Below are positions 32,644 to 57,996 of a stretch of DNA of 64,000 nt, piece by piece. The notes under the pieces were generated by a model that did not search any database, was not told where the DNA came from, and saw only the letters and a list, made by a program, of their open reading frames with translations. Numbering within the stretch: position 1 is the stretch's first letter; each line of letters starts with the position of its first letter. The translations under genes and the position numbers were made by a program. Origin of the DNA: a virus; IMG/VR virus record IMGVR_UViG_3300029883_000002, positions 40,584-104,583 of that record; one strand, 5' to 3'.

Positions 32644-34230
32644 ATGTCTAGTGTTTCCGGTTTTGGTACTCAGGAAAGCGATTCTCCCAAGGCTCCGCAG
32701 GGCGAAAAGCAGGCTCCTGGTTTCAGCAATTCTCAGCAGGAAAAGAAGCGTTCTCTCCTGCACAGTTCATTGTCCGAATTTGACAGCTTCTCGACGCAGT
32801 CCCCGCAGCTATCGAAGTTCGTCGAGCGTATGGAAAAGGAAATCCCCGGCGCCAAGGTCGTTCGCATCCCTGAGCCGTCCAACACTCTGGCGGTGATGGT
32901 CGACAACATGTTCTATGTTCTGCTGTTCCCCGACATGGGCGTTCAGTTCGGAACTCTTGAATTCAAGCGCAAGGCGTTCATCGCTTATTTCCCGAGCGTT
33001 CGCAAGCGCCTCGAAGCTGATTTCGCGAATTGCACCATCATTCAGAATGCCATCGTCATTCCCGAAGACTACCAGAACGAAACTCGCGTCGGCGCCATCA
33101 TCGCCCATCTGCGGTCTACGTTCTCGGCGAACAAGCCTGGCAATCTGGATGTCTACGGGTCGATCAGCTTCTTCAAGGGTTCGACCTTGACGATCTCGAC
33201 GTCGTTGGCTGAAGTCCACAACTACTACGATCGCCATTGGCCGTTCGTGACCAAGCCGCGTTTCGACTACGGCATCGTTGTCAGCTCTCCTGTTCGTGAC
33301 GAACTGTCGGTCTCCAACAACGAACCGACGGAACCGAAACAGCTGTTCGTCGTCGGCGGCTACACCAGCTTCGTTCGGACCAATCCTCCGAACAACTCAT
33401 TGGCTCGCGAAAAGCTTCCGCATGTTCTGGCTCCGATCGTGCACATTTCTTCTGTGTTCTCGATCATGCCGATCAATGCCTTCGCTCCTCTCGCCATCGG
33501 CCTGGGTGGGTCGAAGTTCCTCTATGATGGTCTGTGGCTGTCGCCTTATACTTCATTCGAAAGCGGAAAGCCGAACCTCGGCCGCCTGATGCCGGATGTT
33601 CTGGACAACAGCCGCAATGAACTGATGTCGTGCGACAACATGGACGACGTTAAGCAGTTCGTCCAGATCGCCTGCTTGACTCCTGTTCTGGCTATCGATA
33701 ACATCCCTGGCGTTCCGACGCTGTCCATGCTCAAGCTGTTCATGGACGATGGCAACAACAAGCGGGTCATCGATGCCTTCAGTGACTTTATGGGCAAGCC
33801 GTATGATGGCAATAGCGACATCTTTTCGGTCGCTTCGACGGTCATCACCGGCATCGTCAACTACCCTGACAGCCCGACCGATAGTCGCGTCGTCGACTAT
33901 ATGTCACTGGTCAGCGGTAAGGGATATCCTGCTGAGGAAATCTCGAACCTGCTGGACGTCTATGAGAACCAGCATTACCAGGCTTCGATTGTCGCCAAGC
34001 ATTCGAAGTTCATTCCGCTGTCGTACAACATTGTCAGCATCCTGAAGCCGTCTTTTGTGCAGGCCCTGGTCAATGCTATCAACAACGGCGTGACCATCAA
34101 GCAGTCCAACAGCAATACCAGCAGCAGTAACACCAACTGGCTGATCGATATGGCCAAGGGCTATAGCGAGGCTCGTCTGAGCATGGGTGCCAATACTGTC
34201 GAAGGTGGTCTCGGCGGCATGTACCTGTAA
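32644..34230 (+). CDS. Unknown abundant-type protein with GC-rich codons (528 aa)
   Basis: Not recognised. Residues 1-55 are polar and probably disordered (SGFGTQESDSPKAPQGEKQ). A folded alpha/beta body follows (LAVMVDNMFYVLLFPDMGV, LFVVGGYTSFVRTNPPNN), and the C-terminus has SNSNTSSSNTNW, then GGLGGMYL. Codons are GC-rich except near the start. It is a single-gene transcript with an elaborate leader and a strong terminator, as expected of a highly made protein. Candidates by abundance are a tail sheath, an inner-head protein or the shell protein of nucleus-forming phages. The sequence alone does not decide, and I do not assign one. Confidence 0.75.
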   Translation: MSSVSGFGTQESDSPKAPQGEKQAPGFSNSQQEKKRSLLHSSLSEFDSFSTQSPQLSKFVERMEKEIPGAKVVRIPEPSNTLAVMVDNMFYVLLFPDMGVQFGTLEFKRKAFIAYFPSVRKRLEADFANCTIIQNAIVIPEDYQNETRVGAIIAHLRSTFSANKPGNLDVYGSISFFKGSTLTISTSLAEVHNYYDRHWPFVTKPRFDYGIVVSSPVRDELSVSNNEPTEPKQLFVVGGYTSFVRTNPPNNSLAREKLPHVLAPIVHISSVFSIMPINAFAPLAIGLGGSKFLYDGLWLSPYTSFESGKPNLGRLMPDVLDNSRNELMSCDNMDDVKQFVQIACLTPVLAIDNIPGVPTLSMLKLFMDDGNNKRVIDAFSDFMGKPYDGNSDIFSVASTVITGIVNYPDSPTDSRVVDYMSLVSGKGYPAEEISNLLDVYENQHYQASIVAKHSKFIPLSYNIVSILKPSFVQALVNAINNGVTIKQSNSNTSSSNTNWLIDMAKGYSEARLSMGANTVEGGLGGMYL

Positions 34231-34351: not shown

Positions 34352-34379
34352 ATTTTTGCATACATACAGAGGGGATCAA

Positions 34380-36223
34380 ATGCATATTAACAAACTCAAT
34401 CCTGATGCTATTTTAAATTTAGAATCTACATCTACGTCTACTAAAGAGATCGTTAGACATGTTGGTTTTTGTAACTTAGAAGAATTATATGCTGGATCAA
34501 AAGAAGCTATTTGTTTAAATGAAATTCCTTTAGGAAATAAAGATTATGCACAACAGCGTAATCGTATGTTATTCTCAAGAAGTGGTGATTTGAGTTTTAT
34601 TGCATCTTGTGAATGTGGGCATTATTTTGGTAATTATTATAAAGGACAAATTTGTAATATTTGTCACAGTGAAGTTATTGACGATTTCGCTGCTTATAAC
34701 AAAATTCAACATAAAACTTGGTTATCTATTCCACATGGTATCAAAGTACTTCATCCTATGTTTTATAAGCTTCTTACAAATTCTTGGTTAAAGAGTGGGT
34801 ACCTAGAAGCAATTTTAAACCCTAATGCACAATTACCTCCTGAATTAGAAATGCATATTGATGGACAAGGTTATGTTTATTTCTATGAAAATTTTGATAA
34901 GATCATAGATTACTTTGCACGTATCAATAGTGTTACAAGTAAGAAACCAATTACGAAAGATATTTTAGAAGTTATTGCAAAGAATAGAGATTTGGTCTTT
35001 ACAAATAAGCTTCCTATTTTGTCTAGTGTTGTTCATTCTGTTACAAACGATGGAACACATGGTGGTCGTCAATTTGTTGATTCTGGATCTAAACTTATCC
35101 TTAATGCTGCTACTGATTTACAATGTATTTCAGATAGAGAAACAGTTCGAGTAAAAACATTATTGAAAACTATTTATGATGTTTATTCATCTTATATCAG
35201 TTATATCGATGAAATCATTAGTGATCGTATTGGTGCAAAAAGATCTATTTTCAGAGGTCAGATTTTAGGGACTAGAACACACTTTTCTTTTAGAGGTGTT
35301 ATTTGTCCACATGAAGATAAATATGATCATTTGTACTTGCCATGGTCTATGGGTGTTAATACTTATAAAGATCACATTATTGGTAGATTAATTGATGATT
35401 ACAAAATGGCTCCTGGAGATGCTGTTCTTAGACAACGTATCGCCTTGGTTGAATTTGATAAAGATATCAATGATATATTTATTAAACTTATTAACGATAG
35501 TCCATTTGAAGGATTACCAACGACATTTTGTAGACACCCTTGTTTAAAACGTGGCGGTGTTCAATTCTTGTATATTACTAAATTTAAAACAAACATACAT
35601 GATAATACTATTAATATTGGTGTTCCTGTTAGTCATGTTACGAAGGACCCGAATGCAAAGTTAATTGGCCTACTTGAAAGTAATTTCAAGATAGAATTCT
35701 CCTTAATTGCGGGAAAACCTCGTTAAGCATCATATACCAAACATCCCTCAGAAATGAGATATACAGGATGTGGCCAATCTAATCAATTGGGTATGGTAAA
35801 AACTATGATGATAGAGAAAGTCCGCAGCGAAGCTTCTACGGAACATCGGATGATGTGCTATGAAGAACGTTCAACGATCATGGGTTTATCACCCAGTAGA
35901 CTCCCAAGTGGGAAAGAAATAGGAGATACCCTACTCCAATTGGACAGGGTAAAGATATGATCTGGTCCACATAAAGATATGTGGCGGGTAGAACATACCG
36001 GGATATGAGAGAGATAACTTCAACGACATATCTGGACACAACGGACTTTGACGGAGATGAGATGACTGGTAATCCTATCTTTGAAAATGAAGCTGCTCGT
36101 AAGTTCAGTGTTCTGCATCCAGCAAATCGTATTCATAATACAAAATCATTTGGTATTGCATCTGGCGTATCTTTGACATATCCTGTTCTGTCTACATTAA
36201 GTGCATTCTTGTCTTCTGATTAG
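34380..36223 (+). CDS. RNA polymerase beta' subunit, N-terminal half, interrupted by a group I intron
   Basis: Two exons (about 34380-35657 and 36044-36223) give about 485 aa. The N-terminal zinc-binding element CECGHYFGNYYKGQICNIC is at about residues 76-94. The region FRGQILGTRTHFSFRGVI matches the conserved RxxLxGKRVDYSGRSVI of beta'. The stretch RHPCLKRGGVQFL matches RAPTLHRLGIQAF. Exon 1 ends DPNA and exon 2 begins DFDGDEM, restoring the universal NADFDGD loop whose three Asp hold the catalytic magnesium. Exon 2 continues LHPANRIHNTKSFGIASG and stops, the usual break of split phage beta' subunits. The C-terminal half is the gene at 50888. ATG 34380 follows GAGGGG. The TATATTAC promoter suggests early expression, hence the non-virion enzyme. 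Confidence 0.9.
35658..36043 (+). ncRNA. Group IA-type self-splicing intron in the beta' catalytic motif
   Basis: About 386 nt, no ORF of its own. Core helices can be read off: P2 CTTGAAA/TTTCAAG, P3 TTCTCCT pairing with AGGAGA, P4 GCGG/CCGC within TTGCGGGAAA and GTCCGCAGCGAAGC, J6/7 TTCAAC, P7 GATCAT pairing with ATGATC, hairpins P7.1 (GGGTTTATCACCC) and P7.2 (TCCCAAGTGGGA), P8 TACCCT/AGGGTA, and P9 CCACAT/ATGTGG. The order and the P7.1-P7.2 pair are typical of phage group IA introns. CAAAGT at the 5' end can pair with ACTTTG at the start of exon 2 (P10). The 3' end is G. The 5' boundary is set by protein continuity; the usual exon U before the cut is not obvious, so it may be off by a few bases. 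Confidence 0.85.
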
Positions 36224-39947: not shown

Positions 39948-40019
39948 TTTATGCTTAGTATACATGATATGTAGTTTTTTAACAATCCAAAAGACCTTTG
40001 ACAAGGAAAGCCATCGATT

Positions 40020-40649
40020 ATGTCTGACCAAAAAAGCTATGAGCAGAAGCCCTTCGAGCCGAAGCCTTACGATTTTTCTCGCCTGGTCAATCTGCGAGGA
40101 TCGGATAACAAGGATGCTTCTCTGAATATTGGCGTCTATAACGGCAACGCATCCTTGGCCGTCATGGTCAAGAATGTTCAGGGCGGTCCTGTGTTCAAGT
40201 GGAATCTGAGCCGCAATGCCATGGTGGTTCTGCGCAGCAAGTTTCGTAAGCTGCTGGTAGAGCAGCATCCCGAGACCCACGAGACGATCAATCTCACGAT
40301 TTATGATGACAAAGAAAAGAAATTCATGCCCAACGGGTGTGTTGTCATCGGTCGGAATGACAAGAACGTCTGTTATATCGCTGTTAATGGCCAGAAGGCT
40401 GAGCGGTTGCGGTTCAACATTCGGGCCAGTCTGAACTTTGAACTTCAAACTCCTATGGATGAAGTCGGCCGTTCAAACATCGGTGTCGAAACCATCATCG
40501 AACAGCTTGGTGCCGACATTCCTTATGCTGTTCTTCTGACCAGCTATAAGCGCGAATTCGCCGGCCAGGGCGGTCGCCCCAATAATAATACTGGTGGTAG
40601 TGGTGGTTATCAGAAGAGTGTTCCTCAGGAAGATATCTTCGGCGGCTGA
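40020..40649 (+). CDS. Possible single-stranded DNA-binding protein (GC-rich gene)
   Basis: A 209-aa protein. Residues 20-165 are a beta-rich body (ASLNIGVYNGNASLAVMVKN, GCVVIGRNDKNVCYIAVNGQ). Residues about 184-209 are a Gly/Asn linker (NNNTGGSGGYQ) ending in an acidic-hydrophobic tip, QEDIFGG. This design (OB-like body, disordered linker, acidic tip) is that of SSB proteins. Codons are GC-rich like the capsid, as expected of a protein made in bulk. Its position just after the nuclease and before early genes fits DNA replication. No OB-fold signature was provable by eye. Confidence 0.45.
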   Translation: MSDQKSYEQKPFEPKPYDFSRLVNLRGSDNKDASLNIGVYNGNASLAVMVKNVQGGPVFKWNLSRNAMVVLRSKFRKLLVEQHPETHETINLTIYDDKEKKFMPNGCVVIGRNDKNVCYIAVNGQKAERLRFNIRASLNFELQTPMDEVGRSNIGVETIIEQLGADIPYAVLLTSYKREFAGQGGRPNNNTGGSGGYQKSVPQEDIFGG

Positions 40650-40662
40650 TGATCTGATATAT

Positions 40663-40697
40663 ACAAGATGACCAGACTCAAAGTCTGGTCATCTTGT
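40663..40697 (+). terminator. Strong intrinsic terminator after the SSB-like gene
   Basis: A 16-bp perfect stem (ACAAGATGACCAGACT and its complement) with a 3-base loop is followed by GATTTTT. Confidence 0.9.
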
Positions 40698-40722
40698 GAT
40701 TTTTCCTTCTTGTTTTAAAATA

Positions 40723-40730
40723 TATATTAC
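40723..40730 (+). promoter_or_regulatory. Early-type TATATTAC promoter box
   Basis: TATATTAC lies 30 nt before the ATG at 40761. Unlike the three other boxes it has only TTTTAAAA as an upstream inverted repeat. Confidence 0.5.
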
Positions 40731-40760
40731 TTTACAGAAGCATCGAAAGGGGATTTTCGT

Positions 40761-42380
40761 ATGTTAAAGATTATAAAGATTATTACCGAAACTGACCGCC
40801 CTCAATCAGGTATTGCTAAACTTGTTCATGACTTTGATATCAATAATTCCGACGACGATGTGACGTTTCATATAGGCGGTTCTTATAAAAAATTAGTCTC
40901 TTATGATAAGCAGAAAGAAAATCATTGGGATGAGTTAATGCTTCCGGCGAATGCTTTTCTCGAATCTTTACCAGAAGAATTTCAACGAGAAGTATTATTG
41001 TTCTTTATTAAAGCTAATCAGATTATTTCGACAAACATGTATGATCAAAAATCTATGAATGTTTCCCTGGAGGTTATTGGGGATCTATTAATAGAATTGT
41101 CAAATTCTAAGAATTCGAATATGAGTCTTCCTACAAGGCTTATTACATTTGTTAAAGAATCCGGTATCCCTGTTCCTAATCTCGATAAAGCTATGACTGA
41201 GCCACACCATACAAATTCATTAACATTTAAATATGTAGATTATGTTAATGTTATTGCTATTTCTGTTTTATGTAAAATGATTTGTCCTATTTGGGGAGAA
41301 ATCATTCATAAGACAACATCTTTCATTTCTTCTGATATGAAAGAAATTTATTGTATTAAGATTTTAGACAAGTTATTAAGAACTAGTGAATTGGATACTA
41401 TTGATTCTAAGTTTACAAACTATTTGGATAATATTATTAATCGTCGAGATAACAATGATAGAAGTAAGTTTACAGCTTCTATCAGCGGATATTCTCCTGT
41501 TCGTGTTCGTAAGTTTATTTATGCTACTATGCTTGTTAAGAAACTCATTAATATTGATCTATTAAAAGATGATTCTGATGTTATGAAATATATCGATACT
41601 TGTACAAAGAGTTCTTTCTCTGCTTTAAGTATGACAGTTAATCGTGGCAACAATGTCATGAGTAGAACAGAACTTACAGAATCTAGTGGTGGTGATGAAG
41701 AGTCTAATACAACACACCTCGAACATAGTTCGAAGGTATCGCAAATACCTGCTGATATTCCGATCATTATTGAGTATGGTGTTAATTGTCATATTGAAGC
41801 TGTTTGTAAGAACTACAATATTTCTTTTGATATGTTTAGGGATGCTGTTAACTATTATCGGAATAACATTGTACAAGTTAATAGCTTTAATACCACTATT
41901 GCTGGTTTGATCATCGGTCCTATTATCGGTGGTGCAAAAGGGTTACAATATCTTAATGCAGATACGTTCTGTAAACTCATTGTTGTAACTCAAATTTATT
42001 TAGCATTGAGTGGAAAATCTGCCCTTGTTAATTTGTTAACATGTAATACACCGAATGATAAGAAAGATAGTGCATTATCAACGGTTGGCAATCGTATTAA
42101 TATGAGTTATAATCAAACAATTGAGTATAGAAATTGTATTGCATCGTTTCCTAATTCTATTGGTGATAATTCTTTTGTCAATGTTATTAATAGTCTTAAA
42201 GATTTTATTATTCTCTATGATCACAAATATAATACTGCTCCTATGTTATTCAAATTAATCAATCAGGATATTGAAAATGGAGAAGATGTTTATTATGACG
42301 ATGAAGTTGTTCGTGATATTTGTAGAATAATTTTACAGGTCAGGAACTCTCAAATGCCTGAAGAAAAGATCGAAGAGTGA
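40761..42380 (+). CDS. Unknown 539-aa protein with an early-type promoter
   Basis: Not recognised. Helical protein with an acidic/Ser-rich loop near residues 312-322 (SSGGDEESNTT) and a conserved-looking segment TTIAGLIIGPIIGGAKGL. Strong GAAAGGGG ribosome site. Size and early-type promoter recall the roughly 520-aa fifth subunit (gp68-like) of the phiKZ non-virion polymerase, but no motif proves it. Its stop overlaps the GTG of the next gene. Confidence 0.6.
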   Translation: MLKIIKIITETDRPQSGIAKLVHDFDINNSDDDVTFHIGGSYKKLVSYDKQKENHWDELMLPANAFLESLPEEFQREVLLFFIKANQIISTNMYDQKSMNVSLEVIGDLLIELSNSKNSNMSLPTRLITFVKESGIPVPNLDKAMTEPHHTNSLTFKYVDYVNVIAISVLCKMICPIWGEIIHKTTSFISSDMKEIYCIKILDKLLRTSELDTIDSKFTNYLDNIINRRDNNDRSKFTASISGYSPVRVRKFIYATMLVKKLINIDLLKDDSDVMKYIDTCTKSSFSALSMTVNRGNNVMSRTELTESSGGDEESNTTHLEHSSKVSQIPADIPIIIEYGVNCHIEAVCKNYNISFDMFRDAVNYYRNNIVQVNSFNTTIAGLIIGPIIGGAKGLQYLNADTFCKLIVVTQIYLALSGKSALVNLLTCNTPNDKKDSALSTVGNRINMSYNQTIEYRNCIASFPNSIGDNSFVNVINSLKDFIILYDHKYNTAPMLFKLINQDIENGEDVYYDDEVVRDICRIILQVRNSQMPEEKIEE

Positions 42381-43516
42381 GTAGTATTATAAATTATATT
42401 TCTTTAGATCGAGATAGAAGTGTCCTCACGGGCACTTCTTTCGGTTATACGAGAATGATAAGTGGATTTTATCAACCTACTATTGTTGGAGACCCATTAG
42501 AAATTGAAGCTGATCAAAATATAACATATCCTAGTTTTATAAAATTAATAGAGTATGAATATCAATGTGGTAAAGCTTTTATCATTGAAAGACTGTGTTT
42601 TAAAGATGATAAGATGTACTATCCGTATCATGTTAGTTTTCATGATATTGAAGAAGGTTCACATTCAAATGACTATATCTTTGTTAACCATATTAATAAT
42701 ATTCATAAATCAATAACAAATACAAAGTTTAAACATAATACTCCACTTAGAGCATTTTGTAATAAACTTGATAGTAATTCATATCAGATAGAAAATCAAT
42801 ATATGAAATATTCAGATTTTTATAATACTGTAAGCCAGACGTTTTATGATACGACTGCATTAACGAACTTTTTATATACAGAAAAACGTAATAAGAGACC
42901 TATTATGGATGATTATAATTGGTATATATTTCCTAAAGTTCCTATAAGTGATACATTAAGTAATATTGCATTAACAGAACCTTTAACATTAGATCATTTT
43001 AAACAGAATGCTAATTATGGATTGGATATGTCAGAGCTTCATAAATTTGATTTATACGACATCAGTAACAAAATGAATATTATTGTTAATGATAAACAAT
43101 TTGACGATATCTTTATGATGTTTATATCTTTGAAAAGGGCATATACTGATTTGCATTATAACTATATATTACTTAATGGTAACGTATTTGTAGATGATAA
43201 TCACGATAGCATTTGTATCGATAGACTTAATAGAAAGTATCCTTTTAGAAATGCATATGGTCCTAAAGATGTACTTTCAGTAATTGTAAAAAAATTACTT
43301 AAGTATGCACAACACAATATCGATATCGCTAATAACATTAGTTGTTCTTTTATGAATAATCCATTATGTAAAATAAAAATTTGTATTCATATGACGTTTA
43401 ACGACGAAGCTGTAATTATAGTTTATAATGAAGAGAATGTACGTGATTGGTTTTGTATTTATTTTGATTTAGCTTTATTGTTATTGACAAGCTCTAATTT
43501 CATTCGAACCGTCTAA
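42377..43516 (+). CDS. Unknown 379-aa protein
   Basis: Not recognised. GTG start overlapping the upstream TGA by four bases (GTGA), so coupled. Mixed alpha/beta protein with many aromatic residues (FDDIFMMFISLKRAYTDLHY). No signal, membrane segment or catalytic motif. Followed after 19 bp by a 546-aa gene with a strong ribosome site. Confidence 0.6.
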   Translation: MSSIINYISLDRDRSVLTGTSFGYTRMISGFYQPTIVGDPLEIEADQNITYPSFIKLIEYEYQCGKAFIIERLCFKDDKMYYPYHVSFHDIEEGSHSNDYIFVNHINNIHKSITNTKFKHNTPLRAFCNKLDSNSYQIENQYMKYSDFYNTVSQTFYDTTALTNFLYTEKRNKRPIMDDYNWYIFPKVPISDTLSNIALTEPLTLDHFKQNANYGLDMSELHKFDLYDISNKMNIIVNDKQFDDIFMMFISLKRAYTDLHYNYILLNGNVFVDDNHDSICIDRLNRKYPFRNAYGPKDVLSVIVKKLLKYAQHNIDIANNISCSFMNNPLCKIKICIHMTFNDEAVIIVYNEENVRDWFCIYFDLALLLLTSSNFIRTV

Positions 43517-43535
43517 TCCTTGGAGGGACGAACTC

Positions 43536-45176
43536 ATGGCTAACTTTATTGGTAATGATTATGAATTGAATAATAAAGGCATGTTTGAAAATAAATTTAA
43601 TAATGACAAGAAAGTTGTTATTTATATATTCTCCCCTCGTAATTTTACTGATCAATGTATACGTCCTATGACATATGAAATTAATCGTGGTGTTCTTGGA
43701 CAAGTTCAAGAGTGCATGAGCGATGCCGTTCATCAATGTAATGAAAATCTTGTTTTGAAATTAGCTGATGATATTAATGTTCAGGGAGCCATCAAATCAC
43801 AATGGTCTCCTGATCGTATTGTTAAAGCCAGTGAGTTCAGTCATGAAACTGGCTGGACTTTTCTTATGTATATTGATAATCTTCCTATTTATAATAGCAG
43901 TGGTATTCAGATGCAATGTGCAAATAGTCGAACTATCTATTTTGGACGATTTAGTGACGAACCTATGAATCTGCATGGTACCATCAATCCCGATACTGTC
44001 ATGATTATTCTTCATAAAACTGGCGTTACTGCACAACGATATGGTGATAAAGATCTTATTGGTCTCCAAAATGATACTGATATTATCCACGGAAATACTT
44101 TACAGTTCTTATCTGATCGCGATTCGTATTTGATGCGTCCTGAAGAATTAAGCAATGTTACCGATTTGACGAATAATACTTCTGTTACAATGATTACTGA
44201 AATGAATAAGCTTGGTAATCAAGGTGAAGCTATTATTACAAATACTAGTTTAAAAACACCATCTCAAAATATGGGTCATATTCTTCGCGGTATTGCTAAA
44301 ACTAAGATTGATGCTCGTAGTCCTAATAATGGGATGATGCATTCTGATTTGTTACAAGAATCTTATTTTGATAGTCTTACAAACAATTTACGAGATGTTA
44401 GTTTTGGATCTTCCATTCTTGATCTCGATAGTTGTATTTCATTAGGTGATTTTGTTAGTCGATTTGACCCTAAAATTATTGATTTCAATGTTGGTAATGG
44501 ATTTAACCAAAGAGATCAAAGTGTTGCATGTGCTTCGAATGCAGCTAGCTCTATGTTGGCACAGGTCATTCCTGTTGTTATGACACAGTATATGATTGCA
44601 AATGTTGGTTTTGTTTACAATAGCTTTTATGATAAACAACAATTAAATGTTGGCGGACGAGCCCTTGAAGTTACCCAGGGTACTCTTGGATATCTTGTCC
44701 CCAACCTTGATGAAGATACTAAAGCTCGTAATTTTCAATATTTTATTCGTGATCTTACAAATGGTATTTTTAAAGTTCTTGAATTTCAACGTGGTGATTT
44801 TGAACTAAGTGCAAGTGTCTGTTTTGCTGGTTTAACGCATATTAACTTTCATTATCTTTGCGACAATGAACGATATCGTGAAAACTATGAAGTTCCAACT
44901 ATTCTTGGTGGTATGATTTCTCCGCTTATTGGATCTGGTGATGCGATTGGATATAACAGTAGAAATTTGAGTACCTTATTAGGTATTGGTATTGGTGATG
45001 ATACTCGTCCTCTTCTTGGTATGGATGATGGTCCTTCTGAGATGCAGAAGCTTTTTGGTGCTATCGACGAAGGACGTAAGAATAAGAATTTTGGATCTAT
45101 TGGTAACGGAAATAGTTTTATAAATAATAACAGCAACATCTTTAAAAGCAATAACGACGATGATCTTATTTTATAA
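43536..45176 (+). CDS. Unknown 546-aa protein, probably structural
   Basis: Not recognised. Beta-rich body (KKVVIYIFSPRNFTDQCIRP, GTINPDTVMIILHKTGVTAQ). The C-terminal 45 residues are disordered, Asn/Gly-rich (FGSIGNGNSFINNNSNIF) and end in the acidic tip NDDDLIL. Start follows TTGGAGGGA. It precedes the FG-rich protein; the similar disordered tails suggest the two work together. Confidence 0.65.
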   Translation: MANFIGNDYELNNKGMFENKFNNDKKVVIYIFSPRNFTDQCIRPMTYEINRGVLGQVQECMSDAVHQCNENLVLKLADDINVQGAIKSQWSPDRIVKASEFSHETGWTFLMYIDNLPIYNSSGIQMQCANSRTIYFGRFSDEPMNLHGTINPDTVMIILHKTGVTAQRYGDKDLIGLQNDTDIIHGNTLQFLSDRDSYLMRPEELSNVTDLTNNTSVTMITEMNKLGNQGEAIITNTSLKTPSQNMGHILRGIAKTKIDARSPNNGMMHSDLLQESYFDSLTNNLRDVSFGSSILDLDSCISLGDFVSRFDPKIIDFNVGNGFNQRDQSVACASNAASSMLAQVIPVVMTQYMIANVGFVYNSFYDKQQLNVGGRALEVTQGTLGYLVPNLDEDTKARNFQYFIRDLTNGIFKVLEFQRGDFELSASVCFAGLTHINFHYLCDNERYRENYEVPTILGGMISPLIGSGDAIGYNSRNLSTLLGIGIGDDTRPLLGMDDGPSEMQKLFGAIDEGRKNKNFGSIGNGNSFINNNSNIFKSNNDDDLIL

Positions 45177-45210
45177 AATATGATATCATATTCTAGAATT
45201 GAAACCGGAG

Positions 45211-45228
45211 TGGGTTGTTGACAACCCA
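45211..45228 (+). terminator. Short hairpin terminator
   Basis: TGGGTTGT/ACAACCCA with a 2-base centre is followed by TTTCTATTCTT. A separate 16-bp AT palindrome lies at 45177-45192. Confidence 0.65.
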
Positions 45229-45261
45229 TTTCTATTCTTCAGAAAATCCAAGGGGACTTAA

Positions 45262-46554
45262 ATGACAGCTGACATTGTTATGGTTAAAACCCATGATGTT
45301 ACGAATTGTCTTAGATATTTAATTAACTTATCTGCGCCTGTTTATTCTACTGATGATGATGGTTATGTTATCGATTCTAATGATAATCGTATAAAGATTA
45401 CTTCTGGTAAGGATGAGAAACGCCATGTATTATTATTCCAAGAAGTCTTTAATGATCAAGAAGCACTCATGCTTAACCCGTTTGCTGAGCTCACCACTGA
45501 TCATCCTGCTAATCGTTTCTTCTATAGAACTGTTCGTGGCGGCGCTGTTGGTTGGATTCAATTTGCTTATCGCGAGCTTATCAAAGTAGCTGTTAAAGCT
45601 AAAGATAAATCTGAAAAGACTATTCCTACAAAATTAATTAATCTTGTTAGTGGTATTGTTGACAAGGTCGATGAAAAGACTCTTGTTGAATTTGATAAAA
45701 TTCTTAAGAATGAAACTGATATGTTTGTTGATGTTATGTATCGCGATAAAACTATGATGTGTACTTTGAATGTTCGTCTTTTAAATAGTAAGCAAGAACT
45801 CATTGATGCTTATAAAGAAAAGTTCAATGTCCGTAAGGGTACTTGGGCAGTTCTTATGTATCTTACTGAAAAGATCTTTGATATTAAGACTATTGATGAA
45901 CTTGAAGAAAAGTATTATGTAAAGCCTGAATTCGATGGTCCAGTTGCTCCGTGTCCTCGAATGATTTCTACTGTTCATTTATTGTACAAAATCTATGATA
46001 AGATCAATCCTATTATTGATATGGTTGATGGTATTTATACTAAGAATATGTCACAGTTTGCCATTCATGTTAATAATCTTCCCAAGTATATTAAAATTGC
46101 TAGTAGTGTTGCACAAGATGCAAATAAGATCAATTCTTCTGTTGCTAGAATTGTCCAGAAGCCTGCTCAACAGCAACAGAGTACTGGAAATTCAATGTTT
46201 GGTAATTTAACAAAATCAAATAGTCTCTTTGGTGATAATTTAAGTACACCTAAGAATGCATATACTGAACATCTGTTTGGTTCTGGATTTGGTAGCACTG
46301 GTTCATTTGCTAATTTGAATAATCAATCTAATCAGAATGGTGGTGGTATGTTTGGAGCCATGTTTGGTGGTGGTAGTTCATTTGGGAATAATAATAATAA
46401 TAATAATAACTTTGGTTCTAATCAGAGTAGTAATTTTGGTAGTTTCAATATCGAAAAACCGATGCCATTAAATCGCGCCCCTATGGCTGGAGAAGGATCG
46501 AATTTTGGGAGTAATTCGTTTGGCGGAACTCCCGGAATGCCAAATATCCTATAA
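45262..46554 (+). CDS. Unknown protein with an FG-repeat, disordered C-terminal tail (430 aa)
   Basis: Residues 1-300 are a folded alpha/beta domain with no recognised family (RTVRGGAVGWIQFAYRELIK, GTWAVLMYLTEKIFDI). After a Gln-rich hinge (KPAQQQQS), residues about 312-430 are low-complexity Asn/Gly/Ser with eleven Phe-Gly pairs, including SLFGDN, HLFGSGFGSTGSF, GMFGAMFGGGSSFG and NFGSNSFGG, and few charges. This resembles the FG-repeat tails of nuclear-pore proteins. An in-frame AAT run (46388-46410) encodes eight Asn. AAGGGGAC precedes the ATG. Role unknown; a cohesive or gel-forming tail is inferred. Confidence 0.75.
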   Translation: MTADIVMVKTHDVTNCLRYLINLSAPVYSTDDDGYVIDSNDNRIKITSGKDEKRHVLLFQEVFNDQEALMLNPFAELTTDHPANRFFYRTVRGGAVGWIQFAYRELIKVAVKAKDKSEKTIPTKLINLVSGIVDKVDEKTLVEFDKILKNETDMFVDVMYRDKTMMCTLNVRLLNSKQELIDAYKEKFNVRKGTWAVLMYLTEKIFDIKTIDELEEKYYVKPEFDGPVAPCPRMISTVHLLYKIYDKINPIIDMVDGIYTKNMSQFAIHVNNLPKYIKIASSVAQDANKINSSVARIVQKPAQQQQSTGNSMFGNLTKSNSLFGDNLSTPKNAYTEHLFGSGFGSTGSFANLNNQSNQNGGGMFGAMFGGGSSFGNNNNNNNNFGSNQSSNFGSFNIEKPMPLNRAPMAGEGSNFGSNSFGGTPGMPNIL

Positions 46555-46564
46555 GGCCAATGAG

Positions 46565-46593
46565 ATATAAGGAGGGTGTTGCCCTCCTTATAT
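46565..46593 (+). terminator. Intrinsic terminator after the FG protein
   Basis: A 12-bp stem ATATAAGGAGGG/CCCTCCTTATAT with a TGTTG loop, then TTTTTAA. Confidence 0.85.
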
Positions 46594-46613
46594 TTTTTAA
46601 AGGATAAGTCATA

Positions 46614-47762
46614 ATGACAGAACCAAAAGATAGAGTTAGTTCTGTAGAAACATTTCATGGTTATGTTGCAGAAGATAAAGATAAAGATAGTGTAATTATA
46701 AAAGTATATATTCCAGAATTACAACCAATGCAAACTGGTGCTATCGATGCTAAGAATTCTAGCGCAAATATTGCGGTTATGGATGCTTCTGGTAAATCTA
46801 TAACTTTTAATACAACAACATCAAATAATATTTCTGCTACGTATGAAGGTGATGGTAATCATAAATATCCTCCTGATGTTATGAAAGGCGAACAGGTTAC
46901 TGTTAGAAGAGTAAGTTCTGATAAATTTACTTGGTCTTGTGATGGTCGAGATAAATACCTACGGAAAAATGAAACACTAAGAATAGAAATAGCAAATAGG
47001 CAGGGCGAAGATGATCTCGATGATACAAATACTTATTTGATTGAATTAGATACAAAAAGAGGAAAACATTTTAGAATATCATTGGCTAATAGTGATGGTG
47101 AATTTACATCTTATAAATTAGAAGTAGATATGGATAATGCTACTGCTTATTTTGGAGATATATTGGGAAATACAGTGTGTATTGATAGTAATAAACCACA
47201 AGTTGTTTTAACAAACTCCGATGACTGTATGATAAACTTACAAGGAAAAAATGGGCAAATCATTATACCAGAAACATTGCTCATTTCAGCTGGTAAAAAT
47301 ATGATTTTAAATTCCCCACTACTAAGTATTGCAAATACTTCTGGAGATGGTATATTTGAAATCGCCTCTAATTTTGTTAACTTTACTGTTACAAATTCAA
47401 CTGTTTTTAATAGTCCTTGTTTTGGCGTAACTGGTTCATCTAAATTCATCGGACAGATGGTTGCTTCTGCTATTAGAGCTGCAAGTTATAATTCTGGAGA
47501 TCCAGGATCTCAATATAAAGCTTCATCCATCTCATCTGGGTTAGATGGTAGTTGGAGTGGGACTGCGAATGGTAACTCTCCAGATAATGGAACTGGTGAT
47601 GGTGAACGACATACTGCTGCTTATGAAGATATGGTGAAAACTATAAATACAGTTATTGAATGTTTTAATCAGGTTCAGGGCGTTATTGGCGTTCCTTCTT
47701 CGCAAGGACAGCTAGCTGGAGAAGTTGCAGCATCTATTATGCCATTGAATATGGGAGAATAA
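46614..47762 (+). CDS. Baseplate central spike / puncturing protein (gp5-gpV-like)
   Basis: A 382-aa protein. Residues 1-100 look like an OB-fold phage baseplate V domain (DKDSVIIKVYIPELQPM, then YPPDVMKGEQVTVRR). Residues about 100-260 are a run of short strands with repeating ISAGKNMILNSPLLSIAN and GDGIFEIASNFVNFTV, the pattern of a trimeric beta-helix needle. The C-terminal 120 residues are Ser/Gly-rich with a final helical part. It would sit under the hub (candidate at 28955) and pierce the outer membrane. The lysozyme domain of T4 gp5 is missing. Confidence 0.6.
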   Translation: MTEPKDRVSSVETFHGYVAEDKDKDSVIIKVYIPELQPMQTGAIDAKNSSANIAVMDASGKSITFNTTTSNNISATYEGDGNHKYPPDVMKGEQVTVRRVSSDKFTWSCDGRDKYLRKNETLRIEIANRQGEDDLDDTNTYLIELDTKRGKHFRISLANSDGEFTSYKLEVDMDNATAYFGDILGNTVCIDSNKPQVVLTNSDDCMINLQGKNGQIIIPETLLISAGKNMILNSPLLSIANTSGDGIFEIASNFVNFTVTNSTVFNSPCFGVTGSSKFIGQMVASAIRAASYNSGDPGSQYKASSISSGLDGSWSGTANGNSPDNGTGDGERHTAAYEDMVKTINTVIECFNQVQGVIGVPSSQGQLAGEVAASIMPLNMGE

Positions 47763-47767
47763 ACATT

Positions 47768-48262
47768 ATGTTTTTTATAAAGGAGAAAACTGAAAAGATA
47801 GATATGTATACTGAATTAAATTTATTTTATGATGTCATTATATCTTGGTGTGTAGATCAAGACTTTTTAATAGATGAAAATGGAATATATAGATTAAACA
47901 CGGATAAAGAAGATGATCATAAATATATCATTATGACTATTGCCAAATGGGATCTAAAATCTGTTATCGTAAAGACGCATCTTAGTAAGTTTATAGAAGA
48001 AGTTTTAAATCAATTTGATACTATGTCAAAGATTATAGATTTAAATATTTTTATAGAAAACAATATATCAAGATCATTTCTATTAAACTTAAAAGAAAAA
48101 CATAAATTAACATTAACTGAGAATTTAGATGTTTTTTATAATAAGTATAAAAGTTATGAAGTTATTACAGTAAAAGAGATATTTAAAAGATACCCCTGGA
48201 TATGGCTATTCTGGTATATTCAATATATTTTCAGAGGAACTGTAAATTATAACAGAAAATAG
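47768..48262 (+). CDS. Unknown 164-aa protein, probably baseplate
   Basis: Not recognised. Helical with an aromatic C-terminus (RYPWIWLFWYIQYIFRGT), possibly membrane-interacting or a hydrophobic packing surface. It starts 5 bp after the spike gene and so is co-transcribed. The ribosome site is only a weak GGGAG. Confidence 0.55.
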   Translation: MFFIKEKTEKIDMYTELNLFYDVIISWCVDQDFLIDENGIYRLNTDKEDDHKYIIMTIAKWDLKSVIVKTHLSKFIEEVLNQFDTMSKIIDLNIFIENNISRSFLLNLKEKHKLTLTENLDVFYNKYKSYEVITVKEIFKRYPWIWLFWYIQYIFRGTVNYNRK

Positions 48263-48265
48263 GTA

Positions 48266-48301
48266 TATGAAGAGAGAGCCCGATCGGGCTCTCTCTTCAT
48301 A
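48266..48301. terminator. Bidirectional terminator, 36-bp perfect palindrome
   Basis: A loopless palindrome centred on CGATCG between convergent genes, starting 4 bp after the plus-strand stop. Confidence 0.85.
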
Positions 48302-48306
48302 CATAT

Positions 48307-48657
48307 TTACAATGTTGTTTTAACCAAAGATGTTTTATATAAATTAAATACAGTCCTTAAGTATTCAATAGTTGGAACATACATAAATTTAATATCTTTA
48401 AATTGTTCATCTCCATGAAGATCATTTATCTCTCTAATGACGTATTCTAAATCTAAACTAATACCAACATATTTCATATAGTCTTTCAATCTATATTGAT
48501 ATGTTGCCATAATGTCATATGTCAATGTATATATTTTAGAATTTTTAATAAATAGATTTTTATAATCTTTTACAAATTGTATCCAACCTGCATCAGTATT
48601 GCTATATTTTGAAATAACTGAACTTCTTAATATACTGGATAATGTGGTTGAAGCCAT
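48307..48657 (-). CDS. Unknown 116-aa protein
   Basis: Not recognised. A small protein with STTLSSILRSSVISKYS and YVGISLDLEYVIREINDL. A single-gene minus-strand transcript with AGAGGAGGG 13 nt before the ATG. It may be a small baseplate or tail-completion protein. Confidence 0.55.
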   Translation of the reverse strand: MASTTLSSILRSSVISKYSNTDAGWIQFVKDYKNLFIKNSKIYTLTYDIMATYQYRLKDYMKYVGISLDLEYVIREINDLHGDEQFKDIKFMYVPTIEYLRTVFNLYKTSLVKTTL

Positions 48658-48725
48658 AGTTTTACAAACCCTCCTCTTGTTTAAAAAATCAATTTATATA
48701 TATAATATTTATACTATTGTATCTA

Positions 48726-48755
48726 TATTTGACTTTTCAAATAAATATATATTAC
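48726..48755 (+). promoter_or_regulatory. Early-type promoter: inverted repeat plus TATATTAC
   Basis: The hairpin TATTTG-ACTTTT-CAAATA (48726-48743) is followed after 4 bases by TATATTAC (48748-48755), 45 nt before the GTG of RNA polymerase beta. Same layout as at 34319 and 52971. Confidence 0.6.
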
Positions 48756-48800
48756 TACTTTGACGACACAGAAAAAAGCTTAACATAGGGGTAGCTAAAC

Positions 48801-50891
48801 GTGTCAAAGTTACAAATCGCCGAAGAGTTTCCGAGTTTAGATAATGTTAGTGTTGATAGTCGTATTCTTGGATTACAGCCTGGTTTATATCCTCATTTAA
48901 AGAATAGTTCTGGTCAGCGCACTGATATGCACGGTTCGCATGTCAATCAAACTATTTTAGTTGATGGTAGTCAATTTGCATTTCAATTTACTGGTAAAGA
49001 ATATGACTTTGGACAATTTGATATTAATGATACTCATAGAGAACAAGATATGATTATTCTTGCTGTTGTTCAAAAGTATCCTAACATCAATTATATTCAG
49101 CAGGCACATACAGTTATCTGTAAGGGTCTCGATGATTGTAAAATCCATCACTTTATTGTTAGTCCATATACTAAAGTTGCTGATGGTTTTGGTTATGAAA
49201 ATGTTTTAAGCAATAGACATTCTCTTCGAGCTGGTGAAGTCCTTTTAAAAGAAACTGTTCTCTCAAGATCTCCTATTAATAAAGATGGTGCTTACTGTAT
49301 GGGTCGTAATGTTAATGTTGCATATATGACATCTCCCCATATCATTGAAGATTCCATGTGGATCTCCGATGAATTAGCAGATAACTTAAGTTCTAGTGCT
49401 ATCTATAAACAGATTTTTGTAATCGGAAGTAATAACATCCCGATTAATCTTTATGGTGATGATGTTAACTATAAATTCCTTCCTGATCTTGGTGAAACTA
49501 TTTCTGATTATGGTATTATTTCTGCATTTAGAAAAACAACACCAGAAACATTTATTGCAGATACAATGCCTAATGAATTAACAAAACCTCAGGCTATGCA
49601 TGATATGTGTTATGTTGCACATAAAGGCGCTAAAGTTATCGATATCGATGTTCAGATTTCTCGCGGTGCTAAAATCTCTGGCAAGTGGTATGACCAGGCT
49701 AAGAAGTATTCTGATAGTCATATTAAATACTGTGAAGAAATTGTTAAGGTTTATGAGACGAATCGTAACTTAGAATGCTCAAGTGCTTTTAATAGATTAG
49801 TTTCTGATTGTATGAAACGATTAATTGCTGAAGGTAGACGAGTTAAAAATATCTATACAAAATGCAAGCTTGGTATTATTGGTAGGAATAATCGTCCTAT
49901 CGAATTTATGAGAATTGTCGTTACATATATTGAAAAACGCCATATGTCCTTTGGATATAAAACTACTGGTCGTGAAGGTGCGAAAGGTGTTATTGGACAT
50001 ATTGTTCCAAAGAGCTGTATGCCTGTTGATGAAGATGGATTTGTTGCTGATCTTGTTTTAGATCCTGCATCTTGTATTGCACGCATGAATACAGGACAAT
50101 GGATAGAACAAGGTATTAATCGTATTTCTGAATTTGTTAGACGAAGAGCTGTTGAGCTATATAAGACAGATAAACAATCAGCAATCGATATGTTATTTGA
50201 GTATTATAATGATCTTAATCCTAATTATCTAAAACAAGTTATTGCAACGAATCCAGATTTTAAAAGTCAGTGTGTGCATTTTGGAAGAAGTACTAGTGAT
50301 GAAGGTGGTATTTATATTTGGTTGCCTCCGTTCTTAAAACACATTACTATGAAACATTTTGATTTCTTAAGAAAGAAGTATAAAGTTGGTATTTCTAAAG
50401 CATCTTATAAACGCGTTGATAGCGATGGCAATATCATTGCTGAGTTCGTATCGGATAAACCTGTTTGTATTGGTTCTAAGTATGTTATCGCGCTTTGTAA
50501 AGTTCCTTATCAGACAGCACCTGGTGTTGGTCATGTTAATCAATTTGGCGTTCCTATGAAGTCATCTAATCCTAATATTAAAAATCAATATACGGTTCGT
50601 ATTAGTGCATTGAAATATGGCGAAGATGAATGGCGAACTGTTGGTATGGATATGGGCGAAGATGCAAATGAAATGATTCGTTATACGAGCCTACATGCAA
50701 ACAGTCCTACTGGTGTTAATGTTCTAGTTACTGATATTTTAAAGAATAAGAATCCTACAAATATTGAACGTATCAATATTACTAATGAAGAACTTGTTAA
50801 GAAGAATAGTGTCTTAAATTTGTTCAGTCACATGATTACAACTTTAGGTATTAAGATTGAATCTGAACTTAAAGAGGTTATTAGCCCATGA
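48801..50891 (+). CDS. RNA polymerase beta subunit, C-terminal half
   Basis: A 696-aa protein. The catalytic-lysine loop YKTTGREGAKGVIGHIVP (about residues 385-402) matches GDKMAGRHGNKGVIS of bacterial beta and keeps both lysines. DLVLDPASCIARMNTGQ (about 414-430) matches the DIVLNPLGVPSRMNIGQ segment. The C-terminus covers the beta clamp-linked region. The N-terminal half of beta (lobes and protrusion) is not in this window, as in other phiKZ-type enzymes where beta is also split. GTG start follows AGGGG. The ATGA overlap with the beta'-C gene couples the two subunits. Confidence 0.9.
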   Translation: MSKLQIAEEFPSLDNVSVDSRILGLQPGLYPHLKNSSGQRTDMHGSHVNQTILVDGSQFAFQFTGKEYDFGQFDINDTHREQDMIILAVVQKYPNINYIQQAHTVICKGLDDCKIHHFIVSPYTKVADGFGYENVLSNRHSLRAGEVLLKETVLSRSPINKDGAYCMGRNVNVAYMTSPHIIEDSMWISDELADNLSSSAIYKQIFVIGSNNIPINLYGDDVNYKFLPDLGETISDYGIISAFRKTTPETFIADTMPNELTKPQAMHDMCYVAHKGAKVIDIDVQISRGAKISGKWYDQAKKYSDSHIKYCEEIVKVYETNRNLECSSAFNRLVSDCMKRLIAEGRRVKNIYTKCKLGIIGRNNRPIEFMRIVVTYIEKRHMSFGYKTTGREGAKGVIGHIVPKSCMPVDEDGFVADLVLDPASCIARMNTGQWIEQGINRISEFVRRRAVELYKTDKQSAIDMLFEYYNDLNPNYLKQVIATNPDFKSQCVHFGRSTSDEGGIYIWLPPFLKHITMKHFDFLRKKYKVGISKASYKRVDSDGNIIAEFVSDKPVCIGSKYVIALCKVPYQTAPGVGHVNQFGVPMKSSNPNIKNQYTVRISALKYGEDEWRTVGMDMGEDANEMIRYTSLHANSPTGVNVLVTDILKNKNPTNIERINITNEELVKKNSVLNLFSHMITTLGIKIESELKEVISP

Positions 50892-52846
50892 TCAAGTTTG
50901 ATGTTTTTAATACAAAGATAGATTTTGATTTAACGAAACAGTTATTAGCTAATAAGAATGAAATTTTCCTTGTGGATCTTGAAGATGGTCCATTGGAAAT
51001 ATCTGGAAAGTTCTTAATGTTAAATGTTTGGTTTTGGAAAATTCTTGTTGATAGAAATGTCCGTCCTTCTAGAAAACATTGTTTATTAGAAAAAATAATC
51101 ACTAAAGAAAATCAGACTGCTGTATTAACACATATTGAGAATACTATTCGTGAAAGAAATCCTAATTATATTAACGAGTATGTAAAAGATAAATTAGGAA
51201 ATGATCTTAAGTATTTAACACTAAATGATGATATTTGTATGTGTGATAATAATATTCATCGTATGGTGTCATGGCAACTTGGTTCTTACGAAATGTCTTG
51301 CTCTGCATTTGAAATATGTGATATGTTATTCGATCAAGAATATGATCAGCATAGAAAGTATGATATTAAGAAAGAAGAACGTCTTGGTATTAAACATGTA
51401 GAGAAAAGAATAGCCAATCAAATAGATACTTTTATTAAAGAGATTAGTGATAACGACACTATTCTTTCTATTCCTCTTAAAGTTGGTTCTATGAGTAAGA
51501 AACAGATTGGTCAGGTTTTTGTTGGTATTGGATATCGTACCGATGCTGACGATACTATTGTTATGCGTCCTATTACTGAAAATTACTTAGATGGTTTAAA
51601 CAGCACACACTCTTATTTAACAGAAAGTCTTGCTGGCAAGAAGACAATCTATTACAATAAGGATGCTATGCCGGATAGCCAATATAGTAATCGCAGACAA
51701 CAGATTCAGAGTTCTATTATCCAAAAGTTATATGCTGGTGATTGTGGAACAGATCGTTTTATCCAAGTATATATCCATGCTGGTATTGCTAGTAAAGGAC
51801 AAATGGATGGTAAATTGATTTATGAAAATGGTGTTCTCACTATGATCAATAGAGAAAACGTCTCTAATTTTTATGGTAAATATGTTAACATGCGTTCTCC
51901 ATTTACATGTAATCACACCAATGGTACATGTGCGGTATGTCTTGGTGCATTGGCAGCACAATTCTTACCCTCTACAAATATTGGTTTAGAAGCTGCACAA
52001 AACTATATGAGTGATGCATCACAACTTGTGTTGAGTGCAAAACACTTTACGAATACCGATGCTGTTCTCTATGGTATTCCTCCGCAAATGAAAGAATATC
52101 TATTTATTAGACAAAATGATATTTATCTTAGAGAAGAATTTAATATCAAACCAGTTAAGGTTGGTATACCTTTTATTAATATGAAGAATATAAATGATCT
52201 TAATAGTATTAAGAATGATAAGTTTATTCACGAACAACATTTTAGTAGTATTACAGAAATGCTCTTTATACGCGGAGATACTGGTGAACTTGTATCACAA
52301 TATGCAACAATGCCAATGAACAATATTATCCCGTTCTTCTCATTAGAATTCTTGAAATACATTAAAGCTAATATCCATCGTTGTACTATTGACAATATGA
52401 TTTGGATTCCTCTTGATGAGTTTAATGCAGCTGAATATCCGATTATGAGATATACCATTGAGAGTAGTAGTATGGTTAAATTTAATAACAGTTTGAGCAA
52501 TTTTATGCTCAGTGGTGTTGCTTCATATACCTCTATTTCTGATGTCTTACGAGATTTTAGTGAACTTGTTTATAAACAAATTACAACCAATTTTGCTCAT
52601 ATCGAAATCGTCCTCAAATCTTATCTTAAAACATCTAAAGATAATTATAGAATTCCAATTATTCGAGATCCGAATAATGTCATGTTCGATAGTCTTGGTC
52701 GTAATATTCCAAGACGATCTATTGGTGCACAATTTGCATATGAAAAACAAATGGCATATCTTACAAATCCTAAGACTTATCTTGAAGACAAACCTCCTGG
52801 ATTTTTCGATACATTCATGGGTCTTACAGTTGGTCTTAGTCTCTGA
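50888..52846 (+). CDS. RNA polymerase beta' subunit, C-terminal half
   Basis: A 652-aa protein. LAGKKTIYYNKDAMPDSQYS followed by RRQQI (about residues 248-272) is the F-loop/bridge-like region (compare [21 protein letters not shown]). RSPFTCNHTNGTCAVCLGAL (about 337-356) is the zinc-ribbon region with C-x-H and CxxC. IGLEAAQNYMSDASQLVLSA with KHF (about 365-388) matches [21 protein letters not shown], the trigger-loop-proximal segment. It completes the beta' N-half encoded at 34380. Coupled to beta by ATGA. Confidence 0.9.
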   Translation: MIKFDVFNTKIDFDLTKQLLANKNEIFLVDLEDGPLEISGKFLMLNVWFWKILVDRNVRPSRKHCLLEKIITKENQTAVLTHIENTIRERNPNYINEYVKDKLGNDLKYLTLNDDICMCDNNIHRMVSWQLGSYEMSCSAFEICDMLFDQEYDQHRKYDIKKEERLGIKHVEKRIANQIDTFIKEISDNDTILSIPLKVGSMSKKQIGQVFVGIGYRTDADDTIVMRPITENYLDGLNSTHSYLTESLAGKKTIYYNKDAMPDSQYSNRRQQIQSSIIQKLYAGDCGTDRFIQVYIHAGIASKGQMDGKLIYENGVLTMINRENVSNFYGKYVNMRSPFTCNHTNGTCAVCLGALAAQFLPSTNIGLEAAQNYMSDASQLVLSAKHFTNTDAVLYGIPPQMKEYLFIRQNDIYLREEFNIKPVKVGIPFINMKNINDLNSIKNDKFIHEQHFSSITEMLFIRGDTGELVSQYATMPMNNIIPFFSLEFLKYIKANIHRCTIDNMIWIPLDEFNAAEYPIMRYTIESSSMVKFNNSLSNFMLSGVASYTSISDVLRDFSELVYKQITTNFAHIEIVLKSYLKTSKDNYRIPIIRDPNNVMFDSLGRNIPRRSIGAQFAYEKQMAYLTNPKTYLEDKPPGFFDTFMGLTVGLSL

Positions 52847-52852
52847 TTATTG

Positions 52853-52884
52853 ACAAGGGATGGTCCAGACGGACCATCCCTTGT
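52853..52884 (+). terminator. Intrinsic terminator of the beta/beta' operon
   Basis: A 14-bp stem ACAAGGGATGGTCC and its complement with an AGAC loop, followed by TTTATTTTTA. Confidence 0.9.
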
Positions 52885-52970
52885 TTTATTTTTATAGACT
52901 AAATTCTTCTCTTATTATATGACATAATACATTACCATTAAGTGTCTTATGTTTTTTCATACACTTCAAA

Positions 52971-57796: not shown

Positions 57797-57996
57797 TCAA
57801 TAACATGCATGTATGTGGATGGATAGATTATATTCTTAAGTTACAAAGAACATTTAGAAAAAAGGGTATTTGTGATAATCACGATTTAAATAGATTTATA
57901 GATAATCAAATAAAATTATTAAATTATATTCCAGATGCATTAGATCATAAAGTATCTTTTACAGGTTTTCCAAGAAAGGACAATTCCGATGAGTAA
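57793..57996 (+). CDS. Small unknown protein (67 aa)
   Basis: Begins MINNMHVCGWIDYILKLQ and ends FTGFPRKDNSDE. Coupled to the preceding ORF by ATGA and to the following fibre by an 8-bp overlap that contains the fibre's ATG. No family recognised; possible fibre assembly helper. Confidence 0.5.
   Translation: MINNMHVCGWIDYILKLQRTFRKKGICDNHDLNRFIDNQIKLLNYIPDALDHKVSFTGFPRKDNSDE

Follow-up and report, generated by a model that had tools for sequence, protein, structure and literature searches.

The closest described counterparts of the protein analysed here are gp070 of phage phiKZ and gp64 of phage PhiPA3, members of one family encoded in the slot after the importer PicA (Imp1; phiKZ gp069). 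According to the part of the PhiPA3 study available to us, gp61, gp63 (PicA) and gp64 of that phage are expressed early from one conserved block, are located at the nuclear shell, were not found in virions and were jointly proposed to function in mRNA or protein translocation, and gp64 was among the proteins labelled in proximity to RecA or ChmA and was recovered in pull-downs of gp2 (ChmB) (PMC10643120). The available text of other reports states that Imp3, Imp4, Imp5 and ChmC/Imp6 also act in import (PMC13282480), that further proteins beyond PicA are expected in the trafficking complex and that import of GFPmut1 in phiKZ requires a surface phenylalanine (PMC11087766), and a review states that distinct channels have never been seen in the phage nuclear shell and that proteins exceed the size of its lattice pores (PMC12908238). 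For the passage of proteins and mRNA across the phage nuclear shell gp070 is a candidate, with a sticky disordered tail as the possible physical principle. Eukaryotic nuclear pores are gated by FG pairs, and FG nucleoporins of the GLFG/FG type are cohesive proteins in which a folded anchor carries an uncharged tail rich in Asn, Gly and Ser with an FG pair about every 10 residues. The literature on the phage nucleus and jumbo phages, in the portions of text accessible to us, yielded no report on FG tails of phages.

The window, i.e. the whole stretch of 64,000 nucleotides analysed here, belongs to a virus record in IMG/VR that comprises 104,583 bases; identical sequence was also found in a record of 208,374 bases, and the two records together bore out the initial annotation of the source as a jumbo phage. 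To our knowledge, this phage is known from metagenome records only. The locus recurred at 100% identity in three further records (208,374, 40,056 and 47,233 bases), and window positions 40000–52900 gave no megablast match among 50,697 phage records.

An ORF on the plus strand (45262..46554) encodes a protein of 430 residues, hereafter the FG protein, which consists of a folded N-terminal part (residues 1–294; 45262..46143, plus strand) and a low-complexity tail (residues 301–430; 46162..46551, plus strand). The tail contains 25 Asn, 23 Gly, 18 Ser and 13 Phe residues and is low in charge, with Lys and Arg contributing 4 and Asp and Glu another 4 (8 of 130 residues). Eleven FG pairs were located at residues 313, 323, 339, 343, 364, 368, 374, 384, 392, 415 and 420, which corresponds to spacings of 10, 16, 4, 21, 4, 6, 10, 8, 23 and 5, and Phe preceded Gly in 11 of 13 cases in the tail versus 0 of 12 in residues 1–300. 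Shuffling of the last 121 residues never produced eleven pairs in 100,000 trials (mean 2.4, maximum 9), and among 324 ORFs (minimum 80 residues), taken without gene calling from the window and from stretches of the 208-kb record, the runner-up had 4 FG pairs in any 120 residues. These counts and shuffles confirmed the Asn/Gly/Ser-rich, charge-poor tail with eleven FG pairs that had been described from the sequence. Gly in the eleven pairs was encoded by 7 GGT, 1 GGA, 2 GGG and 1 GGC codons, and the only tandem array found in the gene was an AAT run of 7.7 copies (46387..46409, plus strand) encoding poly-Asn. This run had been annotated as an in-frame microsatellite that could vary the length of the tail; the reading frame was confirmed, while the variation was not seen, as the gene had one length and 100% identity in all 4 records carrying the locus, which are possibly from related samples.

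In its architecture the FG protein resembles FG nucleoporins, having a folded anchor and an uncharged tail rich in Asn, Gly and Ser in which FG pairs occur about every 10 residues and are enriched beyond composition in the shuffle test. It differs from them in that the tail is short (130 residues), belongs to a phage protein family and has no sequence relation that we could find. A search of the tail against PDB sequences returned no nucleoporin and one chance match to a collagen IV domain fusion (E 0.19), and Pfam returned no family at E≤1 for the FG protein, nucleoporin families included.

Direct searches did not place the FG protein in a family. PHROGs gave no family match (best E 0.14, an unrelated family), tblastn found nothing in phage records, and in viral contigs and genome contigs it found identical copies or nothing, the viral-contig search having been redone with the folded part alone after the poly-Asn pattern had flooded the first matches. 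HMMER with an alignment of 16 gp070 relatives failed to recover the gene at E≤1 from the record that contains it, and an HMM of 62 members scored the protein at only 10.3 bits. Because neither these family models nor tblastn found a match, membership in the phiKZ gp070/PhiPA3 gp64 family, represented in PHROGs by phrog_3520, phrog_29928 and phrog_29213, rests on profile alignment and genomic position.

Alignment by hhalign of residues 1–300 with an N-terminal profile of 16 gp070 proteins gave an E value of 5.6e-5, which became 1.1e-5 with the realigned 16-member profile and 9.1e-6 with a 62-member profile (221 columns, residues 24–258 to positions 20–260); the alignments were collinear and comprised 185–221 columns. 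When the first 300 residues of each of the 41 larger window ORFs were compared with the gp070 profile, the FG protein ranked first with a score of 38.6 (next 19.6), and a second comparison of 41 window ORFs gave 43.0 (next 23.3), as did a comparison among 110 phage ORFs of at least 250 residues, again with the FG protein first (43.0, next 23.3). None of 200 shuffled sequences reached the real score (maximum 25.1), and the reversed sequence scored 13.4. The N-terminal part aligned collinearly with 24 relatives at 13–20% identity, and an AlphaFold2 model built with these 24 relatives in the alignment reached a pLDDT of 70.3 and a pTM of 0.68. Foldseek searches of BFVD with this model gave 11 matches at E≤0.001, all with probability 1.00 and all to uncharacterised or unnamed proteins; the phages named were ctLnO19, Ralstonia RSF1 and RP12, Klebsiella Miami and PhiEaH1, the last with a match of 452 residues that equals the length of PhiEaH1 gp070. 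The model and these structural matches are partly circular and not independent of the profile result, as gp070-family members were contained in the alignment. Against PDB, Foldseek returned none at E≤0.001 (best 0.74), suggesting either that the predicted fold is absent from PDB or that the model is too rough. In the family tree the window protein formed an end branch of 3.4 and its placement was unsure.

From these alignments and its position, the FG protein can be regarded with high confidence as a diverged member of the phiKZ gp070/PhiPA3 gp64 family. It shares with these two proteins the slot after PicA, a similar length (430 residues versus 433 and 441), the collinear N-terminal part, a low-complexity C-terminal tail and a hydrophobic last residue. 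One difference lies in tail chemistry, as the tails of phiKZ and PhiPA3 are rich in Met, Gln and Ala with 0 FG pairs, whereas the window tail is rich in Asn, Gly, Ser and Phe with 11.

The FG-protein gene starts 85 bp after that of a PicA/Imp1 homologue of 546 residues (43536..45176, plus strand; C-terminus ...NNDDDLIL), which was assigned through phrog_3141 (E 3e-5) and through hhalign with a PicA profile (E 1.8e-10, 413 columns), against which it ranked first among 41 window ORFs (83.1 versus 21.5). Genome searches with a PicA family model were weak, giving E 8e-4 in the window's record and no match in the 208-kb record, in which the same gene is present. PicA, for which the import function is known, represents a separate family, and the FG protein scored 20.8 against its profile, which is the level of controls. 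The last 60 residues of the window PicA are Asn-rich and contain two FG pairs.

Gene mapping of the neighbourhood showed, in window order, an SbcD-like gene (from 37881) within the conserved block, a phrog_3229 protein in the gp066 position (from 39075), a gp067/ChmC-like protein (40020..40649, plus strand; phrog_3284, the family of phiKZ gp067, E 2.7e-5), a homologue of the non-virion RNA polymerase subunit gp068 (40761..42380, plus strand; phrog_3209, also the family of phiKZ gp068, E 2e-25), an orphan ORF of 379 residues with no PHROG or Pfam match (42377..43516, plus strand), PicA and the FG protein. These are followed by a baseplate assembly protein like phiKZ gp164 (46614..47762, plus strand; phrog_3216 E 5.3e-40), a small ORF, a minus-strand ORF of 116 residues at the flank of the block (48307..48657; phrog_3455 E 6.9e-5), two genes for parts of the beta subunit of the non-virion RNA polymerase (48801..50891, phrog_3295 E 1.3e-114; 50888..52846, phrog_3015 E 2.2e-84; both plus strand) and a helicase gene. 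In the available text of one report, gp068 is termed the sigma factor of the non-virion RNA polymerase (PMC12571901). The order in phiKZ, and in PhiPA3 under its own numbers, is SbcD, 066, 067, 068, 069 (PicA), 070, polymerase and helicase, with no minus-strand ORF annotated between gp070 and the polymerase gene. Since the neighbours match this conserved order, the FG protein sits in the gp070 slot. The baseplate gene and the 379-residue orphan interrupt the otherwise conserved import and polymerase block, and the Gly/Asn-rich tail of the ChmC-like protein ends in EDIFGG.

Analysis of 14 further phage loci, covering the part from gp068 to the polymerase gene with ChmC and the helicase beyond their reach, placed gp068 and PicA upstream of gp070 in 14/14, and downstream a minus-strand ORF of 321–366 bp, compared by position and size only, followed by a polymerase gene. 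An annotation or note identified the latter as a polymerase in all but one of the 14 loci (13/14), the exception being FLC8, in which it is listed as 'hypothetical'; one or two small extra ORFs were present in some loci. PicA lay directly upstream of gp070, within the gap limit, in 26 of 27 relatives' loci and overlapped it by 68 bp in the 27th, and the flank of one more locus was too short to judge.

The PicA homologue is a Chimalliviridae feature, and judged from it the window phage probably builds a nucleus. An RNA polymerase subunit gene in the gp055 position (34356..35726, plus strand; phrog_2987 E 1.4e-60) is preceded by an ORF at 32644..34230 (plus strand), and as ChmA was directly upstream of its polymerase gene in 5/5 phages examined, this ORF is by position a candidate for the shell protein ChmA. 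Its scores against ChmA profiles were not above those of controls (window ORFs and 110 phage ORFs). Its structural model resembled chimallin, with nine chimallin chains ranking first (E 9e-15 to 4.5e-12), at a pLDDT of 47 and by a circular comparison, the model having been built on a ChmA alignment.

The tail was then compared across 62 relatives, comprising 16 used from 175 phage records that matched phiKZ gp070, 27 from virus records (10/22 and 19/22 records matched, less two repeating RAY and pEt-SU) and 19 non-identical sequences from 36 loci of a related-locus search, including a few near-copies of phages already present; dereplication at 90% N-terminal identity left 52. A low-complexity tail of 92–247 residues was present in 52/52, with an entropy of 2.93–3.92 bits versus 4.04–4.18 for the folded part. 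The number of FG pairs in these tails was 0 in 40, 1 in 8, 2 in 2, 3 in 1 and 4 in 1. The FG-rich form is peculiar to the window phage among the phages examined, while the low-complexity tail is common to the family. Orthologues with conserved FG spacing, a search for which had been recommended, were thus not found, and the absence of FG pairs from orthologues, which had been named as evidence against an FG-based function, was seen in 40 of the 52. On the same folded part, 42/52 tails were charge-poor (0.03–0.19) and 10/52 were Arg/Asp-rich polyampholytes (0.55–0.72), and flavours included Met/Gln/Pro, Tyr-Pro-Gln, Trp-Gly-Gly, Asn-Pro-Phe and Arg/Asp. On the gp070 tree, 4 changes are needed to account for the charged class, only 1 of them imposed by well-supported branches. 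Several relatives' tails carry a short helical-looking segment (for example SMSDFMAAQNP, SIQDLLNAG or SIDEALKLA) that is not evident in the window protein.

The ends of PicA and gp070 were also related. In the window phage the C-terminal peptide of the FG protein, PNIL (46540..46551, plus strand), resembles the DLIL end of PicA in the adjoining gene (...NIL and ...LIL), with the last two residues in common. Of 39 dereplicated genomes, 20 had the same last residue in PicA and gp070, against 6.1 expected (0/100,000 shuffles), a match first noticed in part of the data and then tested on a larger set including those loci. The test set was reduced from 58 pairs to 39 at 60% gp070 identity, with PicA assigned by position, as the longest of the ORFs that end where gp070 starts. 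Agreement faded inward (10, 9, 7, 6 and 5 of 39 at positions −2 to −6), with end pairs such as EDLF/GDLF in JM-2012, DTSL/GTSL in L155 and LGLL/LGLL in PhiPA3; 19 of the 39 genomes, RAY and Moabite among them, showed no last-residue match. As a control in 24 genomes with a readable gene before PicA, the last residues of PicA and gp070 were equal in 11 (3.65 expected, p 5e-5), those of gp068 and PicA in 4 (1.67 expected, p 0.065) and those of gp068 and gp070 in 5 (2.03 expected, p 0.035), the last being a weak excess. ChmA ends differently, with the last residue equal to that of PicA in 1/18. Aliphatic ends of the two proteins agreed in 33/39 (Fisher p 2e-5), for which a tree-aware test retained only 3 supported pairs. 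The match hints that PicA and gp070 may dock in a common pocket or site; shared descent or an effect acting across the genome may also be its cause.

Taken together, we favour, by a modest degree, the interpretation that the FG protein is the gp070/gp64 of the window phage and acts at the shell as a partner of PicA, with a sticky FG tail that would cluster or line the import site. Its association with the shell is probable by analogy, and what is known from PhiPA3 and phiKZ (a site at the shell, expression early in infection, no presence in virions and a PicA punctum) would be carried over to this phage. The folded N-terminal part would anchor the protein by docking at the shell of the phage nucleus, and the hydrophobic C-terminal peptide common to PicA may serve as a further anchor. 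The 130-residue tail, multivalent and weakly cohesive, would then draw import complexes into a cluster at one site. Alternatively, it may line the import site and admit cargo able to bind Phe; the requirement of GFPmut1 for a surface Phe would agree with cargo selection by Phe contacts, which fits here and proves nothing for this phage. For the window phage we infer localisation, cohesion and gating alike, and the strength with which each can be proposed differs. The chances that this low-complexity tail is both sticky and functional appear evenly balanced, and its action as a selective gate similar to FG nucleoporins is putative and unlikely. A more speculative reading still is that disordered tails of the gp070 family gate phage nuclei in general, being brought together with PicA at a single site on the shell by the shared C-terminal peptide, with tail chemistry (FG; Met/Gln/Pro, Tyr-Pro-Gln, Trp-Gly, NPF or Arg/Asp) differing between phages and setting cargo selectivity. 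If gating were true, it would represent a second invention, by a bacterial virus, of an FG-type permeability barrier. The proposal that the FG protein is worth testing as a gate or condensate part of the shell was backed by gp070/gp64 homology, synteny and adjacency to PicA, and the idea of a shell component gains support because PhiPA3 gp64 sits at the shell and was not found in virions. A sticky-tail design on a shell protein beside a known importer is the point of interest, and it is testable in phiKZ or PhiPA3.

Several other explanations were weighed against this interpretation. The tail of a gp070 orthologue may merely be a fast-drifting flexible linker or solubility tail, in which the FG pairs as such serve no function and the Asn and Phe codons derive from an AT-rich genome. 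Such drift would account for the turnover of tail sequence and chemistry across the family and the FG-richness peculiar to the window phage among those examined, and the AAT run is a microsatellite and TTT and AAT are AT-rich codons. The position of Phe before Gly in 11 of 13 cases (0/100,000 shuffles), the GC-rich Gly codons and the retention of a low-complexity tail in 52/52 dereplicated relatives argue against it. Simple repeat expansion likewise does not explain the FG pairs, because AAT is the sole array and four Gly codons are used. We consider the linker explanation possible and rather doubtful.

It was also considered that the FG protein works with transcripts or RNA polymerase, in mRNA export or in tethering of the polymerase to the shell, with a tail that binds RNA or ChmC and not import cargo. 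The ChmC-like, gp068 and polymerase genes of the same block and the Arg/Asp-rich tails of 10 of the 52 relatives are in line with this, as is the proposal, in the available part of the PhiPA3 study, that gp61, gp63 and gp64 jointly serve the translocation of mRNA or protein (PMC10643120). The FG tail itself, however, has 4 basic residues in 130, and its C-terminus matches that of PicA, the corresponding match to gp068 being much weaker; a role with transcripts appears unlikely. A virion or baseplate part would be suggested by the adjoining gp164-like gene, but this gene does not follow the gp070 slot in phiKZ or in the 14 phage loci, so that it is the newcomer at the window locus, and the gp164-like gene is distant from gp070 in Moabite, AH04 and AH06. 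PhiPA3 gp64 was moreover absent among the virion proteins given in the accessible text (PMC10643120), and a structural role in the virion is highly improbable.

Elsewhere in the window, the genes at 57989–59503 and 61499–62629 encode proteins with TNSALTTTLSAYV-type repeats and Gly-rich stretches, which are perhaps fibre parts. Beyond the window, a segment of roughly 1 kb (L176:8900–9900) had a G+C content of 0.57–0.60, in comparison to 0.29–0.36 in most of the surrounding 4 kb, and is possibly a recent import.
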